DNA of 64,000 nt, taken from the NCBI RefSeq assembly GCF_045679555.1, contig NC_092091.1, forward strand, positions 11,247,918 to 11,311,917, given 5' to 3'. Positions 9,614 to 37,722 of this stretch are shown here, one piece after another. Below the pieces are notes generated by a model, which was not told the DNA's origin, made no database searches, and saw only the letters and a program-made list of their open reading frames with translations. How positions within the stretch are numbered: position 1 is the stretch's first letter; each line of letters opens with the position of its first letter. This DNA comes from Salvelinus alpinus. Its lineage: Eukaryota > Chordata > Actinopteri > Salmoniformes > Salmonidae. The translations under genes and the position numbers were made by a program.

Positions 9614-12600
9614 TCAGTCCAGCAGTCTCTTCCTACTGTAGGTGTTTCTTGTAGTTGACCGCCTGGGGGGCTGGCTGAAGGGAGAGCGTTCCAACTCAAA
9701 CTCCTTCTGAGAATGGGCTTCATCTAAAAAGACAATCAGATGTACATTTCTTTACACATAATTTTGCCTTTTCTGAACTAAAATGTCATATTTTAAAATT
9801 ACTAGCTGAGATATTACGAACTAAACAGTGGTTGTAGAATAATAAACATACATACAATACAGCAAAATAATCCTGATAATAATCTCACCTATAAAATGAT
9901 GAGTTCTCTTGGTGGCAGAACCTGCCTTCCCCTTGAATAACATGGGCGACTGAGTGAGGGCTAGAATCCCACTGGCAGACACTGGCTTCCTCACCTTAGA
10001 GCTCGGGGGTGTTACCACTGCTGAAGATAATCAATCAAACCAACAAACAAAAATCAACTATTGCTAATCAATAAACAGATGAAAAGTTCACCATTAGAGG
10101 AATCATATGAATAAATTCAATTAATAAAAACTCACAGTGAACAGTTCCAGTGGCCATGACAGAATCTTCATCTTTCAGAGGTTCGGCACCTTCAGCCTGC
10201 TGAACCTGGCTCTCCATCCAGTCCATGTCCTCCAGCTGGTCCAGAGGAGAGCCTGCTCTCTTACCAGGGGAGGACCTGGTAACCTGGCTGGACGTGGGAG
10301 CCAGTAGTAGTGCGTCAGACTCCTCCGTCTCCTTCAGTCTGTAGATTCCCTCCAGCTCTGCCTCGTCCAACATCTCCAGCCCCTCTAGCAGGTGCTCCTC
10401 CTTCAGTCTCCGCTCCTTGCCCCCCATCATCCCAGGCCGCGCCCTCTTCTTGCGGGGCCAGCTGTTGAGGCTCTCTGGGGTGGACCTCCCCATGCTCTGG
10501 GGGGACGGGGTCAGGGGGATGAGCGCAGCTGTGCCCAGGGGGGATATGGTCCCAGCGGGGTGGCGCGTGGGGGTGTAGGACTGGCAGATGTACGTCTGGA
10601 AGCCCCCTTTCCCCGGAGTGCCCTTGGCGGGAGTGCCGTGGGTGCATAGCGATGGCGAGACGTGACTGGCGTCTCTGTGTTTGGAGCAGAGCGCAAGAGG
10701 GCTGTCCGTGTGGGGGAGGTTCATACTGCCAGTGGGAGTCGGAGACCCTGCAGCCCCATCCCCGGCATTGAAAGAGTTCATGCGCTTTAACTTAAGCTTG
10801 GGCAGCCCCGACGCTTGCATCTCCAGCTCCACTTTGTACGTTAGGAGGTCCGGGGTGACGAGCTCCTTCTTGCAACTTGTGGTGGTTCCTGAAGTCCTGG
10901 GGGTGGAGAACCGAGACGGTTCAGTGGAGTACCCCCAACGGACTGCCGCTTCCCTCTGCTGGCGGTCAGGGGTCTGGCGGAAACCATAGCTTCTCCCAGG
11001 TTTAGTGGTTTCTGCGGGTATTGGCTGTTTGGTAGAGGCTCCGGTGAACTGGAAGACTTGGTTGTTGGTCTTTGAGGGTTTCCTGGAGAAGGATATGTTC
11101 ATCTTGAGGCCGTCAGTGATTTGAGTCATGACCACTTTGGCCTCGGAGATGTCGATGCTCTCGTCCTCGGAGGTGGTGCTGAACTGGGAAGAGTCAAGCT
11201 GCTGGGAGTTGGCCCCCATCTCTCCCCCCAAGGCCTGGGAAGACGGCTCCCTCTCGTGGAAGTCCGACGGTACATTTCCGCTGGACACGGTGTCACTGTT
11301 TTCCTTACTCGTAAGATCCGTGCTGGCTGCTACTACAGTTAAACTCTCATTGGACAGGGATATCAGGTTCTGCCTGGTTTTAGCTTGCACACCCTGGCCA
11401 GAGCTAGTCCTGGTCAAACATTTAGCTGAAGAGGTGGTGACAACAGTCGTTTTATTCAGTTGGGTTTTGACAGAAGTCTTTGGTGACGTTACGGACCTTG
11501 ACAATCCTAAAGTCCTTTTCGTCGGTGTGAGCATGCCTTGGTGCGGAGGCATGGAGAGAGTTTCTTCAACAGGGGTTCCTCCAGAGGGTGTGAGCATGCC
11601 GTGGGCAGGTCTCAGAGATTTCCTGGGGGTTGTGGTGGTGGGGTGGTCAGAAGAGTGGTGTTTCTGAGTACCACCAGGGAGGTCCTGTTCATTCTTAACA
11701 GGTGTGTTGAACTTTCCCATAAGCCGTTTGGAAGACCTCGGACGTCCACTTTTCTCTGGCGTCACCTCAACGCCACCTGCAGCAGAATTTTCCGGAATCC
11801 TGGACAGAGACGCTTGGGGGGAAATTCTGTGCGATCTCTGTACTACTTTTTCTGGAGTTCTAGATATCGCCTGTTTGCTGCTGGGACTCTTGAGCGGACT
11901 GCAGAACTTGTCGGGTGTGTTCATCAACAGCCTTGGAGAACGTCGGGTGGAAAGGTGAGGCGACTCAGGCACCTTGAAGGGTGTGTTAGTCTCCGCGACT
12001 CTAAGTTTCTGAGGAGACGGGGACCAGGTGACGTGCTTCCTGGGCGTTCTGGAGCAGGGTGGGCTCTGGAGCAGGCTAGGGCCGATGGGAGACAGACGCT
12101 CCAGTAATGTCTTGACCGGAGTCCTCAGGATGCCCTTCAGAGGGCTCTCCTTTTGGGGAGTCTCCAGCACCAGGCTCCTCCTGGCTGGGGATCTGAAAGG
12201 GCTGCCCCTCAGGGCCATGCCACCCTGCCCGTGAGAGGGCCCTGCCATCTGGCTATCTGTGACCGAGTAACTCTGGACCCTGGAGGACCTGAAGTTCTTA
12301 GGTGTTCTGGGGGTCAGAGGTGTCTTGCTCCCTCTAGCAGACCTATGGTGTCTACCAGGTGAGTTTGTGGGGGTATTATTTGGACTCTGAAAAGGAAAAC
12401 CAAGCAAGTATTTCCAATAAGTATCACAAGTTAAAATCAGCATAGCTATTCTTTGCTTGTGAGAATTTTCAAAATCGGGTTCAAGTCCAGGATGAGGTTG
12501 GGCCACGCAAGGACATTGAGACTTGTCCCAAAGCCACTCCTTCGTTGTCTTGGCTGTGTGCTTAGGGTCGTTGTCCTGTTGGAAGGTGAACCTTCGCCCC

Positions 12601-15600
12601 AGTCTGAAGTCCTGAGCGCTCTGGAGCAGGTTATCACCAAGGATCTCTCTGTACATTGCTCTGTTCATCTTTCCACTCCATACCGACTAGTCTCCCAGTC
12701 CCTGCAGCTGAAAAACATCCCCACAGTATGATGCTGCCACCACCATGCTTCACCGTAGGTATGGTATTGGCCAGGTGATAAGCGGTGCCAGGCATGGGCA
12801 TTCAGGCCAAATAGTTTGGTTTCAGACCAGAGAATCTTGAGTCCAGAGTCCTTAAGGTGCCTATCGCCAAACTCCAAGCAGGCTGTCATGTGCCTTTTAC
12901 TGAGGAGTGGCTTCCGTCTGGCTACTCTACCATAAAGGCCTGATTGGTAGAGTGCTGCAGAGATGGTTGTCCTTCTGGAAGGTTTTCCCATCTCCACAGA
13001 GGAACTCTGGAGCTCTGTCAGAGCTCTCTGACAAAGGCCCTTCTCCTACGATTGCTCAGTTCGGCTGCACGGCCAGCTCTAGGAAGAGTTCTGGTGGTTC
13101 CAAACTTATTCCATTTGATGGAGGCCACTGTGTTCTTGGGGGCCTTTAATGTTTAGGTACCCTTCTACCAGATCTGTGCCTCAACACAATCCTGTCTCAG
13201 AGCTCTACGGACAACTCCTTCGACCTCATGGCTTGGTTTTTTGCTCTGACATGCACTGTCAACTGTGGGACCTTATATAGACAGGTGTGTGCCTTTCCAA
13301 ATCATAGAAGCATCTCAAGGATGACCAATGGAAACAGGATACACCTGAGCTCAATTTTGAGTCTCCTTATGGTTTTTAAAATTGTATAAACTGCCTTAAT
13401 TTTGCCGGACCTCAGGAAGAGTAGTTGCAGCTAATGGGGATCCATAATAAATACAAAATACATAGCAAAGGGTCTGAATACTTATGTAAATAAGGTATTT
13501 CTGTTATTTTTAATAAAATGTGCAAAAATTACTAATTTATGGGGGGGGGGGGGGTATTGTGTGTAGATTGATGAGGATTAAAAATATGTTTTTATCCATT
13601 TTAGAATACGGCTGTAACGTAACAAAATATGGAAAAAGTGAAGGGGTCTGAATACTTCCAGAATGCACTGCATGACATCTGAAGAGGTTCAACGAGATGG
13701 AGTTACCTGGAAGGCATCAGAGTTAGACAACTGCCTCCAGCTGGACGTGGACTGTGTGGCTTCAAACAGAAGACGTACTGGAGACCGTACTGACCGCAGG
13801 TTTACCACACCTACAGAAATTGAATGATCAATGATGTCAATATGTGTCAGCTGAAAGACTCCACAGAATATTGAACGGTGGTAACTATACGGATACGCAT
13901 GAAATAATGGTGTTTAGTCAACCTACCTATTTTGCTGTCACTGAGCGGGAGCTGAGAGGAGAGAGCTTTGTCCAGGTTGCGGGAACGAGGCTGGGAGCTA
14001 GAGTAGAAACTGGAATGTCTCCTGGCAAACTTCTCCAATCTTGGACTCCTCCTCAAGTCTGTTATAAATATAATTTTTCATGTCTTTTATATTGTCATTT
14101 TAAAACTATTAAAACCCCTGACTATTTATCAACTTATACAATTGCATTGTTGATGTGGTTGATATTAAAAACGTTTATGAGCATCTCAGAAATGTGCACA
14201 GGACATTGACCGTTTCATGTAGACTCTTAGCACCAGTCACTGACCTTCTAGAGGCTTCACTGGCGACTCCTCAACGATGCACTCGTCTGTCGGGACAGAC
14301 CTCCTGACAAATCAAACAGACAGGACATTTCGCTTATCCACTATCGTCCCCACAATGTACTGCTACCAATTCAGTTACAGTAATAACTTCTCCTAAACAA
14401 ATCAAAATGTTAAACTAATACAACAAGGCAAATGAGCCATTTGCACTGCCAACGATGCAAAACTCCCTTTTTTCATATATGAATCAAAGTAAATGAATAA
14501 CTCGTATTAACTAGTATTAATTTGTCAATCAATACTAGTTAAATCAACACTAGTATACTAGTTAATTCATACTAGTTAATATTAAAAGCAGTTTTTTCCC
14601 TCTTGTAATCTCAATATCAAATAATTTCTGGGTAACAAATAGTTAGTTTACTGTGATTGTTTTAAATTAAAATGGTCAACAAGAAAAAAAAATAGCTTCT
14701 TAGCAATTTGTCAAAACATAATTTTACTAGAAGTGGTCTGAGTGGAGAGGGGAAAACTAGCTGTTATTGGCAGAGAGGTTTGAAACTCTTTCTTATTGGT
14801 CTATTAACTAATTTACCGCCTGGTCTATGGACCCAGGCAGGCCAAAACTCCATCCCAACAAAACAGGCAGTCATTTCAGGCAGTCTTTTCAAACAGCTCT
14901 TACACTAAACCTCATTGTGTGGAAATATACACAAAAATATAAAACACAACCTGCAACAATTTCAAAAAGTTTACTGAGTTAAAGTTCATATAAGGAAATC
15001 AGTCAATTAGAATAAATTCATTAGGCCCTAATCTACAGATTTCACATGACAGGGGTCATACAGAATTACATCCATTGGTTTCAGATACCTTTAAAAAAAA
15101 AAAAAAGGATAAGAAAACCAAGTCAGTATCTGGTGTGACTCATTTGCCTCATGCAGCATGAGATCTTTCACATAGAGTTGATCAGGCTGTTGATTGTGGC
15201 TTATGGAACGTTGTCCCACTCCTTTTCAAATGGCTGTAAGAAGTTGCTGGATATTGGCGGGAACCAAAATACGCTGCCGTACACTTCGATCCAGAGCATC
15301 CCAAACATGCTCAATGGGTGACATGTCTGGTAAGGATGCAGGCCATGGAACTGGGACATTTTCAGCTTCCAGGAATTGTGTACAGATCCTTGCGACGTGG
15401 GGCTGTGCATTATCATGCTGAAACATGAGGTGATGGCGGTGGATGAATGGCAAGACCATGGGCCTCAGAATCTCGTCACGGTATCTCTGTGCATTCAAAT
15501 TGGCATTGGTAAAATGCAATTGTGTTTGTTGTCCGTAGCTTATGCCTGCCCATACCATAACCCCACCGCGGGGAACGCTGTTCACAACATTGACATCAGC

Positions 15601-18600: not shown

Positions 18601-21600
18601 AGGGGTTCATTAAAGAGGGCTATATGAAAGTGTACTAACAACAGACAACTTAGAACGGTCATTGTATCACATCCACACAGCTGCACCACAGCAGATAAAG
18701 CCTCCGGCCCCAGGTAACTTACTTCCTCTTGCTGGCGGAGCGGTCGCGGAGCTCCTGTAGCTCCCCGCAGTCGGAGGCCATGCTGAGGGCCGTGGAGAGG
18801 TGAGGAGAGGAGACGCTGTCCTTGGTCACGGACTCGTCGCTGAAGAAGTCAGAGGGCAGCACGGCTGACAGGGCGGCGGGCAGCTGGGTTCCCAGGCTGT
18901 AGTATACGTCTGCTAGGACCCTAGGGATGGCCGTCAGGAACCTGATAGCCCACAACACCATTTATTCAAACTTTTTATACACTGGGTGGTTCGAGCCCCG
19001 AATGTTGATAGCCAGGGTATATGAGACCGCATACCACGGGTATGACAAAACATGTATTTTTACTGCTCTAATTACATTGGTAACCAGTTTATAATAGCAA
19101 TAAGGCACCACAGGGGTTTGTGATATATGGCCAATATACCACGGCTAAGGGCTGTATCCAGGCACTCCGCGTTGTGTCGTGCTTAAGAACAGCCCTTAGC
19201 CATGATATATTGGCCATATACCACACCCCCTCGGGCCATATTGCATAATTATAGCGCTATTTTTATTATAACTTAATATAGCGCTATTTTTATTGTAACT
19301 ATATATAGAGCTATTTTCCTCATCTCCTTAATCTGGATTCAACCCCTAAAGTTGAGTCCGATTTCAGAGAAGAGACTCACACAGGGAGGACTTCATCTTG
19401 CAGGAACTTGGCCAGGTACACTGGGTCTTTGGTTAGAGAGATGATCCTTAACATGTCAGTCACCTGGGTAGAGCGAAGGAGAAATCAAAGCCTGTAAAAC
19501 GACTCTGTTTTGTTTGGAGGAAGTAATATGATGGGTTGTGGAGTCGTTTCCTACCTCCTCCACTGTCTCCTCCACATCCGGTGTGTCGGCCTGCTGCTCA
19601 GAGGGGAGGAGTCGGCACATCTCCAACCTGAGAATCGCCTGCAGCTGGCACCTGAGAGAGACATGTCAGTGTTAGTAATTGGTCGTGTTCAGTAGGGCAA
19701 ACCGTAGTAAAACATTATGAAACCAAAAACAAAAATCAGCGTTTCTTATTGGACAAGCCCAGGTAATCTGTTTCAGTTGGTTCGGCGCTTGATGAAAACA
19801 ATCCTCTATTTAAAATCGCATTTATCGGTGACGACCATAAGCTGCTGTTCAATATAATAATAATAATTTGAAACCAGAGACTACTATGTTTAACAGTCAC
19901 TACTTACTCTCTGAGTTTGCTGTCGGCGTCAGGAGTGTTGCTGTAAAGCTGGCGGATGGACTTGCTGGACTTGAGCAGGTTCTGTTGGACGAAGAGCCAG
20001 ACCTGCTGGGCAGAGAGAAAGAGTGAAGTCAGACGTATTCCGACGGAATACGTGAACGTAAGGAAGTGGAACCCTTGCATTAGGGTTGGCCGATATCCGC
20101 ATTTACATATCATCTAACTTGTTAAATATCGCGATAAATCAGTTTTAGTGTATGCGTAACCTTTATTTAACTAGGCAATTAAGTTAAGAACAAATTCGTA
20201 TTTGTATTACATCACATTAGCCGTTTATCCCGTCACGTCAAGTCAGGTATTACATCACATTAGCCATTTATCCTGTCAAGTCAGGTATTACATCACATTA
20301 GCCGTTTATCCTGTCAAGTCAGGTATTACATCACATTAGCTTTTTTTTTTTAGATAGTGACCTTCAGGATTTTCAAATAGAACCTGTCCACTAGGTATTT
20401 TCTTCTCTACGTCTTTCTTACCCCGAGGTCTGGGTTGGGCCCCTGGAACGTATTACCCCCAGGTCTGTCTTATCCCCAGGTCTATCTTACCCCCAGGTCT
20501 GGGTTGGGCCCCAGGAACGTCTTATCCCCAGGTCTATCTTACCCCCAGGTCTGGGTTGGGCCTCAGGAACGTCTTATCCCCAGGTCTATCTTACCCCCAG
20601 GTCTGGGTTGGGCCTCAGGAACATCTTGATAGCAGAGAGAAGGTGCTGGGCCTCAGTGAGGAGGGAGGAGCCTCTCTCAGCCACCGTCTTCTCATAGCCG
20701 GCCTTCAGGTGGGACAGCAGCTCGGCCTCGCTCTTGAAGTCTGACAGGAGAGCAGGCATGGAAGTTTGTGAGTTATTAACTGGTGTGATGTTCAGAACAT
20801 TCATTGAAGATAAACAGAAAGTACAGAGCTGGCATGATTCCCTATGCTACATAGAACACCAAGAACCAACTCTGTTCTATAAAAGTAAAATGTTTTATTT
20901 GAATGCTCTGTAATACACCCATTTTCATTTCGCTGTCTAAAAATTATGAGACTAGGCCTCTTATCAAACATTTGACCATTAAAAGCTGAATCTGAACCAT
21001 GCTGAGACTATGGTTTAGCCTTTTGGGAGCAGAACAATTAACAACCCTGTTGACAGACCAGACACTTGCGTTGGGCCCGACGGACCAGACACTTGCGTTG
21101 GGCCAGACGGACCAGACACTTGCGTTGGGCCAGACGGACCAGACACTTGCGTTGGGCCAGACGGACCAGACACTTACGTTGGGCGTGGGGTCCAGTCTTG
21201 GCCCCGTTTCCTGATCGTCTTTTCCCCAGCCTCTCCTGTGCCCTGCAGCCCTCAGCCCCCGGCGCCCCCACCTCAGTCTCTCCAGCCTGGCTTTTCTGGG
21301 CCTTGACATTCAGACGGGCCACGTTCAGCATCTGCAGTGAGCGGCTCATAGTCTTCATCTTCTGCCTCACCGGCGTGCGCTGGGCGCCCCCTGCAGGCGA
21401 CAGCAGAATAGACAGACACTCAGCAGGGGAAGAACAACATAAGTGTCTCGTCATTGTAGGTTATGAGCTGCTACACCGATGGCGTATCACAGAAGAATCG
21501 AAAGCCATCTGTTCACACATGAGACGCTCACTGATTAGTACAAAAATATATTGAGACATTTCTAAAATACAAACAGAAGTCACTGACAATTGAGGGAGGG

Positions 21601-31454: not shown

Positions 31455-33900
31455 TATAAAGTTTGAGATGCCGCACCCAACGGGATAAGAAGAAACGACT
31501 ATCAGAGGCAGAGGAGACCGTTCACACGGTCCCAGAACCCACGGGTCTGAGTGTCTTTAATTTATCAAGCAAGATATTGAGCCCTGCCCATGTCTCTTTG
31601 CTTAATAAAGGGTTATCTTTTGTGCCTACAACCCAGTGCAACGACTTTGATGTGAAGGTAGACATGTTCAAGTTTTTTAGAAACATCTGTTTAAGGGAAT
31701 ACTTTAGCTCCCCTAATCCTGCCTATTGACCCAGTAGGTTGCTCACCTGCACATACTCCGACTCCTTTTAGAAGCAACAGTTATTTTATACCTCCAGCCA
31801 ATCGCAATCACTCTATCGAGACATATTGCAGACTTGTTGAAAAAGATGTTGCTCATCTCCTTAAGAACAAACAGGAGTCCAAATCTTTCCATAATTTACA
31901 TAAGGATAAAAAACAAGCTTTGCTTGATTTACATTCCGATACCTCAGTCCTTATTCATACTGCTGATAAGGGTGAGTCGGTTGTACTCATGGATAGGACA
32001 GCTTATGTAAATGAGTGTCATAGACAGCTGCTTGACAACACCTTTAACAAGAAATTCAGAAGTGACCCCCCCTTTCCCAATTTCAGAACACTATCTTTAT
32101 TGTAAAGGACACCAGCAGTATGATCTCTATCATTGAATCTCTTGATCCTCTCCCTGAGAATACCTTGTTAGTTACTTTTGATGTTGAGTAGTTATACACA
32201 AATATTCCACACGAGGGCGGTATTGAAGCTATGGAACATTTTCTTCTGCAACGTGACCCTAATGAACTACCTTCCAGTGCATGCATTGGCTGAAATAGTA
32301 CTCACACACAACTATTTCATGTTTATAAATTATTTCTTTATTCAGACGAAGGGTACTGCTATGGGATCCCCCATGGCTCCTAACTATGCTAATTTGTATG
32401 TGGGTTACATGGAGAAACAGACTATTTTCAACCCTCTCAAAAATGTTTTCTTGCCTAACATCATTATTTGGAAACGGTATATTGATGATATTTTTGTTCT
32501 ATGGAGGGGTGATGCAAAACGGCTCCAGGCATTCCATGCTTTTCTTAACTCCTGTTCTGAACATTTGAGATTTACTATGCAATCTGATACACGTCAAATC
32601 AGTTTTCTTGATCTCCTGATCTTGTGTGAAAATAATGTTCTATACACTGATCTTTACAGGAAACCTACTGATCGTAACAGTTTGTTGAGGGCTGACAGTT
32701 GTCACCCACTTCCCTTGAAAAATAGTTTGCCCTACAGCCAATTCTGTCAAATCAAAAGAATTTGCAAAAAACAATCAGATTTCGACAGAAATATGGCTGA
32801 CACGCAAAGAAAATTCAAGGAGAGGGGGTACAAAAATGATCTGTTTAATATTGCCATTGAGAAAATTCAAAACATGACCTTTTTCAAGGGCAGTCTCGCA
32901 GAAAGACGCATTCTTGCATTCTAACTACCCGCTATTCAAAGCGCTCTGAACAAATTAAGGGAATCGTTCACAAACATTGGCACATTCTAAAATCCGATGA
33001 TAGTCTCGGTAATGTGTTTTCGGACCTTCCCTTGGTCGTATTCTCGCCGGGCAGAAATCTCAGAGACCAGTTGGTACACTCTGATTTACCACTCCAAGAT
33101 ATTCCTGAACAACGTCTATTTGCGCCCCTACTGGATGGAAATTACAAGTGTAATGGCTGTGCTCAATGCAATGGCACTTATAAATGCAGATCCTTCAAAC
33201 ACCCACGAACAGGGAAATCGAGCCCAATCAAAGGTGTTATTACGTGCTCCACTAAGGCAGTTATTTATCTTATAACTTGTCCTTGTGGTAAAAATGATGT
33301 GGGTAAAACAAAGCGCGAATTAAAAGTACGTATCTCAGAGCATCGTAGCACCATTAGGTGCAAAAACTTGACTTACCCAGTTGCGGCCCACTTTTTGGAG
33401 GCAGGCCACTTGATTTCGTCTCTGCGTTATATTGGCATCGAACATGTCACCCTCCCTAGGAGAGGGGGTGACCTTGATCATTTATTGTTAAAACGAGAGG
33501 CTGCCTGGATCTTTAACTGAAAGACCCTTGCTCCCTTCGGTCTCAACGTAGACTTTGATCTGAAGCCATTCTTGTGACTTTGCCATTGTAATTGTTTGTA
33601 AGCTTGTGTAGTATCAAATGAATCTATGATCGTATGCTATCCATTTGTTTTTTGTATGCTGTTCTTTGTATGCCATTTTAATATTTGAGAATTAACCAAT
33701 GATATTAGGCCACTCTTGGCCATGATTACAGACACCTGTGTGTCTTTTGACACTATATAAACGAGTCATCCCGCAGTGTTTGTGATTATACCGATGAAGA
33801 CAGCTTGGCTGTCGAAACGTTGGATATTACATTTTTGCATCTGAGCTCCTAGAGTGTGCCTCTCTCTTTTATTTTCAAGTTTTCTACTCCGCTAGCCAGC
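31455..33900 (+). mobile_element. Penelope-like retroelement, degraded
   Basis: A reverse transcriptase region (about 31460-32924) shows QTKGTAMGSPMAPNYANLYV and the catalytic box YIDDIFVLW, followed by QISFLDLLI and LYRKPTDRN, typical of Penelope-like elements. A C-terminal GIY-YIG endonuclease region follows (about 33014-33520), with CNGCAQCNGTYKC, IYLITCPCGKNDVGKTKREL and RISEHRSTIR, and the end KREAAWIFN. A 3' tail runs to about 33900. The copy is broken by a handful of changes and looks moderately old. This order fits the Neptune-type elements of fishes rather than a host gene. Confidence 0.9.
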
Positions 33901-34884: not shown

Positions 34885-37722
34885 TCAGTCATTGGGAATA
34901 TTTATTCTGTGAGTTCGCAGATGTCTCTTCAGACTTGCTGCTAACTTCAAGTAAGTTCCACACAGATGACATTGAACTCCCTCCCCTGTATGAGTCCTCA
35001 TATGCACTGTCAGGTTTCCCTTCAGATTGAAGCGTCTGCCACATTCGTTGCAGCAATGTGGTTTCTCCTGTGTGTGAGTCATCATATGCTTTGTCAGGCT
35101 TCCCTTCTCGCCGAAGCACTTGCCACATTCTTTGCACCGAAACGGTTTCTCCCCAGTGTGAGTCCTGGTATGCTTTATCAAGTCTGACTCGCAGTAGAAA
35201 GCCTTGTCACATTCCTTGCACGGATGCGATTTTTCCCCAGTGTGATTTTGCCTATGCAGTTTCAGACGACCTTTTGTCGACAAGCATTTCCCACACAAAT
35301 CACATTTAAAAATCAGCCCTGTATGAAGATTAACCATATGATTTTTCAGGCTTTCCTTGTGAAAGAAACGTTTGCCACATACCATGCAGCGATGTGGTCT
35401 CTCCACTGTGTGAATCTTCATGTGTCGGGTCAGGTATCGGTTTAAGGCGAAACACTGGCCACATGTATCGCACATGTATGGTCTGTCTTCACTGTGCCGT
35501 AACTGTTGGTGCCTTTTCAGACCACTTGCTGTCGCAAAGTATTTTACGCACACATCACACTTCAGATCCGTCAACTCACTGGTTTCTTTTCTTGGCCGTC
35601 CTCTTCGTCTCTTTGACCCCGACAGAGGTATTCTCTTCTCCACTCCATCCGCTTTTCCGCCATTACTTTCATCATTGTCACTTTCTGGATTTACTTCAGA
35701 GGGGGGCTGATAGTCACTGGTTGATTCTGATTCTCTGTTGCCGTCGCCATCAGATTCTCTGTTGCCATCAGAGTCTTTTTGGCTCTCTACCGTTATGATG
35801 TTGAAAGAGTTCCATGTAGACTCTTCGGTATCAGACTCCACTGGCCCCAGATAGGAGCTCCACTCCTGCTGCCCCGAGTTAACCTTCTCTTCAGAGACAG
35901 TGAGCCGCTGGAGGTCTGGAGGAAAGGAGAAAGGATGAAATTTGATGAAAACTTAAAACGCTGAAAAGAGACAAGAAACAGGGCTCTACCTCCATTTCCT
36001 GTCTTGTTGTGTCAGATGTAAGTGAAGTTACATAAAACATTTATTTGAAAAGCAGCTATAGGTTAAGGCTAACAAAGGCTGAGTACTGAGGCTAACCGTG
36101 TACGGTGGCAATCCAACAGTTGGCTTTTGCTTGTGAATTTTTTATTCATTATTGGACTGAACACGCATGATGCGTCCCAGTATATAGCCCAGGTATTATC
36201 AACTTCACATCGCCTACCTTACCTAATAAATCAGACTTTTAAACAAATTCTTGATATCCAGTCTGAAAATAATGACTGGTTAAATCCATATGAATTCAAT
36301 CGCTTTTTGACAGTGTACCTTATGATTTAAACAACAAAAACTTTCCATACATGTTTGTCCACGGAAGAAGTGGCAAAACATCGTCAAAACATTCAGGAGA
36401 TCAAGGTGCTCAAAGTTGACCCATTTTGCATACCCCACCATACCATGAGACATCCATGTCTTCTTCACTGGAAAATATACAAAGATACAGGCGTCCTTCC
36501 TAACTCAGTTGCCGGAGAGGAAGGAAACCGCTGAGGGATTTCACCATGAGACCAATTGTGACTTTAAAACAGTTAGAGTTTAATGGCTGTGATAAGAGAA
36601 AACAGAGGATGGATCACCAACATTGTAGTTACTTCACAATACTAACCAAATTGACCAACCTGGTCTCAAAACATTTCATATTATTCTGTATGTAAATTCG
36701 AGACACGCCATTTTGCGTTTGGTATGGTTACAGATGGTTACTTATTAAAACAAAAAGATCCACCCCGTTTGGTCGGGGTGGATCTGTGGGCGTACAACGC
36801 GAACGTCTAGCAACTCAAAGATTGTGAGTTCGAATCTCATCACAGACAACTTAGCATTTTTGCTACTTTTCAACTACTTACAGTGGATTCGTAAAGTATT
36901 CAGACCCCTTCCCTTTTTTCCACATTTTGTTAAATTACAGCTTTGTTCTAAAATGGATTAAACAAAAAAATAATCCCCAATCAATCTAGACACAATACCC
37001 CATAAAGACAAAGCGAAAACTCTAAGAAAAACAAAGAAATATATTTAAAAAAAAAAGTAAAACAATTATAGAGACTGTGGTGATTGTATGAGTGTAATCA
37101 GATTGAAAACATTAGGATATGTTATTGACATTGAACTGATTATATAGCCTACTATGCAGATGTGTTAAAAATCGTGTTTAATTTGTAGCATAGGCCTATG
37201 AATTGGGCTGATATGGTCTGTTGTGTCGACTATTAGCTGAGAAAAACAAACAGGAGTTCCCATACCGGGAATAAATCAAACTTACTTTCACCCCTGAAAA
37301 TACAGTTGAATCACGTTTTTGATTGCACTGGGTCTTTAACCATTTTAAACGTCAACCCAATAGGGTGATGTCAGTTGGACGTCCCAAGGATCTCGGATTA
37401 CTTTTAGTCAGTAGCTAGATAACTATGTGACTAAATGATGTATTACTCAAAGCCTCTCAAATCAAATGACACAAATTAGGCTACAATGTAAAAATGAATG
37501 TCAAATAGAGAGACGTAGTCACAAACCTGCTAATCTATGCAACTTTATCTCTGGTTTGAAAACCAAATCCAGCAGTCTTCGTAGACGTGCATTCGCCCAT
37601 TCCAAACGGGAGATTTCTTCCTGGTACTCTGCGATCGTTTTTTTAACTACAACAGATATCTCCAAAGGAACTGCTGTTAATTTTTCGTTGAGGAACACAT
37701 TGAGCTGCTGAAGTTTAGACAT
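34885..37722 (-). CDS. C2H2 zinc-finger protein, two coding exons, 408 residues
   Basis: Exon one (37722-37527) encodes MSKLQQLNVFLNEKLTAVPL, a helical N-terminal module common in teleost zinc-finger families, and ends GCAG|gtttgt. Exon two (35915-34885) starts cctccag|ACCTC and restores GAC (D), continuing LQRLTVSEEKVNSGQQEWSS. The total is 1227 nt. An acidic, serine-rich linker and a basic AT-hook-like patch (SKRRRGRPRKE) precede eight C2H2 fingers, from CDVCVKYF to CHLCGTYL. Several are joined by the TGEKPF-type linker. This implies sequence-specific DNA binding in the nucleus, so a probable transcription factor. No KRAB domain is visible. The target is unknown, and orthology cannot be named by eye in so large a family. 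The 1.6-kb intron carries dispersed repeats and a Tc1-like end. Confidence 0.9.
36330..36480 (+). repeat. Dispersed repeat shared with 39690-39860
   Basis: Shares aactttccatacat, tcattttgcataccccacc-like sequence and gagacatccatgtcttc with 39690-39860 in the same orientation. It lies in the zinc-finger gene intron. The family is not assigned. Confidence 0.8.
36655..36890 (+). repeat. Dispersed repeat with tRNA-like segment
   Basis: Begins near ctggtctcaaaacatttcat. It contains a short hairpin (gatccaccccg / cggggtggatc) and a box-B-like gagttcgaatctcatcac. I recognise the arrangement as a salmonid repeat. It is not a functional tRNA because no cloverleaf closes. Confidence 0.6.
36891..37020 (+). 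mobile_element. Terminal fragment of Tc1-like transposon
   Basis: Begins cagtggattcgtaaagtatt and continues through acacaataccccataaagac, the same end as at 789 and 13669. No transposase remains. Confidence 0.82.

Follow-up and report, generated by a model that had tools for sequence, protein, structure and literature searches.

A probable mirage-type minisatellite over the exon 7 donor of TICRR, with downstream GC copies most likely left unused in the intron

The TICRR locus and its boundary arrays

The window, a 64,000-nucleotide stretch of the Salvelinus alpinus genome, carries on its minus strand a gene that we identify from its encoded domains as TICRR (treslin). In a Pfam search its successive exons match Treslin_N, Treslin_M and Treslin_STD, so that the N, M and STD domains by which TICRR/Treslin can be recognised are all present (best matches of separate exons: PF21854, 4.1e-42; PF15292, 6.3e-29; PF21855, 2.1e-08). 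With exons 8 and 9 joined, the Treslin_STD match reaches 70.9 bits (1.5e-19), compared with 34.7 and 30.1 bits when they are searched apart, and the exon 8-9 peptide found no match among solved structures at E up to 1. A second TICRR copy (ohnolog) was sought with Treslin_N throughout the genome (2.37 Gb, 928 contigs); two candidates were scored, and the single match was the window's own gene. The following features, all on the minus strand, are those on which this article turns.

21178..21390, minus: TICRR exon 7, placed by its open frame, its acceptor CTGCAG and neighbour exons that match Treslin domains
21052..21184, minus: 27-bp minisatellite over the exon 7 / intron 7 boundary (TRF: 4.9 copies, 97% matches)
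21172..21177, minus: exon 7 donor GTAAGT, copy 1, presumed functional (AAC|GTAAGT; U1 duplex -7.6 kcal/mol)
21145..21150, minus: first downstream copy, GCAAGT (U1 duplex -3.3 kcal/mol)
21118..21123, minus: second downstream copy, GCAAGT (U1 duplex -3.3 kcal/mol)
21091..21096, minus: third downstream copy, GCAAGT (U1 duplex -3.3 kcal/mol)
21064..21069, minus: fourth downstream copy, GCAAGT (U1 duplex -3.3 kcal/mol)
20595..20740, minus: TICRR exon 8, start of the STD domain (Pfam Treslin_STD; acceptor placed)
20411..20627, minus: second boundary array, mainly of 52-bp period, over the exon 8 donor (TRF)

The original prediction held that a 27-bp array copies the exon 7 donor, first as gtaagt and then four times as gcaagt at exact 27-nt steps. 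Both the minus-strand sequence and TRF bear this out: the donor positions are 21177 (GT), then 21150, 21123, 21096 and 21069 (GC). The unit is made of 7 exonic and 20 intronic bases, the 7 exonic bases ahead of the first donor recurring in it. Copies 1-3 differ from one another only at position +2, copy 4 carries an extra change, and copy 5 follows the unit for 18 bases, likewise with an extra change, before the unique intron begins. As the copies are otherwise nearly identical, the GC found in all four downstream copies probably reflects a single T>C mutation that was then amplified. All four read AAC|GCAAGT, and the base before every donor copy, the first included, is C and not G. With C at -1 of the exon 7 donor, the codon at the exon 7/8 junction becomes C|AC, or histidine; human treslin has aspartate there. 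We read exon 7, from its sequence, as phase 1 at both ends.

In a DNA search of this one assembly, the array stretch has a single full-length match. Three weaker matches were considered as possible relatives; they correspond to a 28-bp array (contig C29) and a 9-bp array (C3), and were judged to be alike in composition only. An exact search with a 24-base unit found nothing in genome_contigs or viral_contigs, as expected for fish DNA.

The second array, whose copies fall outside the coordinates of the original prediction, takes in the exon 8 donor. This donor, GGGG|GTAAGATA at 20594 (predicted U1 pairing -9.2 kcal/mol), has identical copies at 20542 and 20490, 52 and 104 nt further on, and weaker variants at 20456 and 20421. 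Use of 20542 or 20490 would read VR and then an in-frame stop. Since GT and the rest of the site are unchanged in these copies, they are by sequence better competitors than the exon 7 GC copies, and the exon 8 array is the better candidate of the two for an effect on splicing.

Elsewhere in the window, a long open frame in the 3′ part of TICRR (10068-12686, minus) begins with about 50 residues that by eye resemble a Tc1-type transposase fragment, and a Pfam search of the whole frame gave no family, with E allowed up to 1. Two other open frames, also judged by eye, resemble a Penelope-type reverse transcriptase (32172-33520, plus) and a C2H2 zinc-finger gene (34885-35952, minus).

Reading frame and quality of the duplicated donors

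The minus-strand frame stays open through the 27-bp array, each step adding RKCLVRLAQ, or RKCLVRRAQ in the last. The prediction of nine in-frame residues per step with no stop is thus correct, its QRKCLVRLA being the same peptide in another rotation. It had also placed the insertion just before a conserved region, and the site does precede the STD domain: counted from the exon 7/8 junction codon, the Pfam match starts at residue 7 of the peptide. The open frame is not remarkable in itself: among mono-shuffled 27-mers, 74.6% have no stop in the given frame, and a period divisible by three is expected one time in three.

Among the possible exon 7 donors, scoring by position weights leaves 21177 as the sole in-frame GT site with a score of 3 or more from 21400 to 20760; 21370 and 21271 also pass the cut-off and were set aside as out of frame. 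The presumed donors of exons 6 (21667) and 7 (21177), both on the minus strand, share the sequence AAC|GTAAG with C at -1, so TICRR appears to tolerate that base when it is followed by GT. Could the GC copies then serve as donors as well? They match the consensus from +3 to +6, but their predicted U1 pairing is only -3.3 kcal/mol; that of the GT copy is -7.6, and the values for nine presumed TICRR donors run from -5.1 to -9.2 kcal/mol. The first GC copy also has an intact GT copy in the same context 27 nt upstream.

Published work offers a yardstick for such sites. GC donors are described as compensating by a match to the consensus at other positions (PMC2490688; PMC6350295), and are on average weaker than GT donors, their strength in the first introns of lncRNAs being very low (PMC7242645). 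In one minigene study of +2T>C variants, some full-length transcript came from 4 of the 18 tested; the motif AG|gcaa was common to all five active sites, one of them from earlier work, while the sequences of the 14 inactive sites, in that and previous studies, vary more (PMC12805630). Table 1 of that report includes +2T>C sites without G at -1 (tctGTAAGT and tttGTGAGT), and both gave no full-length transcript. The AG|gcaa core of these active sites is absent from all four TICRR copies, each of which is AAC|GCAAGT. The TICRR copies resemble known GC-AG introns in having GC for GT and a good +3 to +6 stretch (PMC2490688; PMC7242645), but unlike the GC-AG introns described as closer to consensus elsewhere (PMC2490688) they have C at -1, and they are only putative donors.

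Taken together, the C at -1, the weak predicted U1 pairing and the intact GT copy upstream make it unlikely that more than a few percent of transcripts are spliced at the GC copies. Trace use may nevertheless occur. The AG|gcaa rule rests on few sites, and it is not absolute, as results for +2T>C sites are reported to differ significantly between minigene and full-length assays and the determinants of their outcome to reach beyond the 9-base motif (PMC8375439). The same source estimates that ~15-18% of +2T>C variants yield some wild-type transcript, and in one case the usage of a weak intronic GC donor reached 1.3% (PMC12805630).

Boundary minisatellites and the competing readings

Repeats of this kind have been described in amphioxus, where "mirages" in Adh3 and in the globin genes BflGb6 and BflGb9 are minisatellite-like tandem duplications of exon-intron boundaries (PMC3087553). 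According to that account they are unstable in length, leave regular splicing apparently undisturbed, and contain copies that could be cryptic sites; many of the copies, though not all, carry splice signals, and mirages have been proposed as a source of new introns. The TICRR array agrees with them in that its units span the boundary (7 exonic plus 20 intronic bases) and its copies carry the splice signal, G[T/C]AAGT in 5/5, four of them with GC. It differs in belonging to a fish gene, in its 27-bp unit at a donor and in downstream copies with GC rather than GT. Closer in phylogeny is rainbow trout irak3, where intron 4 contains four repeats of the opening 15-17 nt of exon 5 (PMC6763605): this too is a salmonid gene with an exon edge repeated in the adjacent intron, but on the acceptor side, whereas the TICRR array is at a donor. 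Two other candidate parallels were put aside: the DDX3Y MSY2 repeat is instead an upstream promoter repeat, and in Sparus MSTN-2 the repeats are intronic and not boundary arrays. Literature searches listed no work that we recognised as dealing with this array or with the choice of TICRR donors in fish.

We therefore consider with good confidence that the array is a mirage-type minisatellite in which a T>C copy was amplified, the first GT donor working and the GC copies being spliced out. A 27-bp segment across the TICRR exon 7 / intron 7 boundary would have been duplicated in tandem into the intron, one downstream copy would have acquired C in place of T at +2, and slippage or unequal exchange would then have amplified this GC copy; the GT copy next to the exon would remain the working donor, while the GC copies would leave with the intron. 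Most likely, then, the array is a known kind of repeat and not a new splicing switch, its extra copies lying unused in the intron. Counted against this are the tolerance of C at -1 with GT, the consensus bases at +3 to +6 of the GC copies, and the statements quoted here from PMC8375439, PMC7242645, PMC6763605 and PMC3087553.

Two adjacent TICRR introns begin inside boundary arrays, and copy number might accordingly act as a heritable dial on full-length treslin, with the exon 8 copies leading to a stop and probably to decay, and the exon 7 GC copies adding nine residues per step in some transcripts. Such a dial is conceivable, but we hold it to be unlikely. A role for the downstream copies as weak U1-binding decoys or recruiters, which would tune the first donor while themselves remaining unspliced, is quite improbable: four near-consensus +3 to +6 cores do lie within 108 nt of the donor, but their predicted pairing is weak and they look like the product of plain recent amplification.

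The original prediction went further and saw the GC copies as alternative donors inserting 9, 18, 27 or 36 residues in frame ahead of the STD domain, a polymorphic copy number determining the isoform ratios. The period is a multiple of three, the frame is open and +3 to +6 are intact; GC donors have been linked to alternative splicing in general (PMC2490688), the authors of the trout irak3 study suggest that salmonids may quite commonly have non-canonical splice sites (PMC6763605), and an insertion outside the Pfam STD match could be tolerated. Against this stand the C at -1 in 4/4 copies with its weak U1 pairing, the AG|gcaa shared by the active minigene donors (PMC12805630), the stronger copy of the same site upstream, and a frame that about three in four shuffled units would keep open anyway. 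Graded isoforms thus find little backing here and are very unlikely, although polymorphism in the copy number of the 27-bp array is in itself plausible. Lastly, tandem arrays can be mis-assembled, but an assembly artefact, in the array itself or in its copy number, is the most improbable of these readings, considering the array's short 133 bp, the private differences in copies 4 and 5, the unique right edge and a different boundary array ~425 bp away, even if the copy number could still be off.

Boundary-spanning minisatellites offer raw material for new donors and, in a published model, for new introns too (PMC3087553). With two arrays in adjacent introns of one replication gene, in a genome rich in minisatellites, TICRR provides a convenient test of whether duplicated donors are ignored by the splicing machinery and whether copy number has any effect; should all junctions use 21177 and 20594, it would be an ordinary example of tolerance.

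Minisatellites and tandem donor motifs across the genome

The genome is rich in minisatellites. Across 20 fixed 10-kb stretches, those with a period of 10-100 and a score of at least 80 make up 18.9% of the called bases (35,165 of 186,522), a figure to be read with their very uneven cover (0 to 100% per stretch) and with the 10,000 bases given by one all-satellite stretch. The corresponding values are 8.5% for the window and 9.5% for the TICRR span. Within TICRR, arrays enclose 2 of the 11 placed donors and 0 of the 9 placed acceptors, a count in which the exon 4 donor is a guess that is one base off and which takes in, from exon 11 onwards, only the exon 12 donor. An excess of boundary arrays in the gene was considered and rejected: when six arrays are placed randomly against 10 donors (the exon 10 donor being left out of this run), P(>=2)=0.32, which is not exceptional.

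A preference for GT first and GC after was likewise set aside. If downstream donors were commonly silenced by selection, GT-first arrays should outnumber GT-last ones, but by this coarse test GT,GC,GC and GC,GC,GT each gave 15 matches genome-wide. Read backwards, these patterns matched 19 and 23 times, so that the donor motif is not in excess over these controls. By eye, the matches represent roughly eight arrays for each order, five being in both lists, and few of them need be at exons; the patterns also demand an AG ahead of the junction, which leaves out the TICRR array. A search for three tandem strong donor motifs (gaps 11-41) gave 8365 matches compared with 5052 for the motif backwards, both figures being counts of matches and not of arrays; the matches listed are all on C1, most of them from one satellite at two places.

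Five stretches (L028-L032) were opened, two from the GT/GC order patterns and three from the tandem donor-motif matches. L028 and L029 have no long open frame within the 300 nt read upstream, and in L030 and L032 those 300 nt are mostly array. In L031 (C1:2178500-2180800), a 40-bp CAG|GTGAGT unit is tripled right after an open frame, the sequence further upstream reading N; this open frame may be an exon, in which case L031 would be another boundary case in the same genome.
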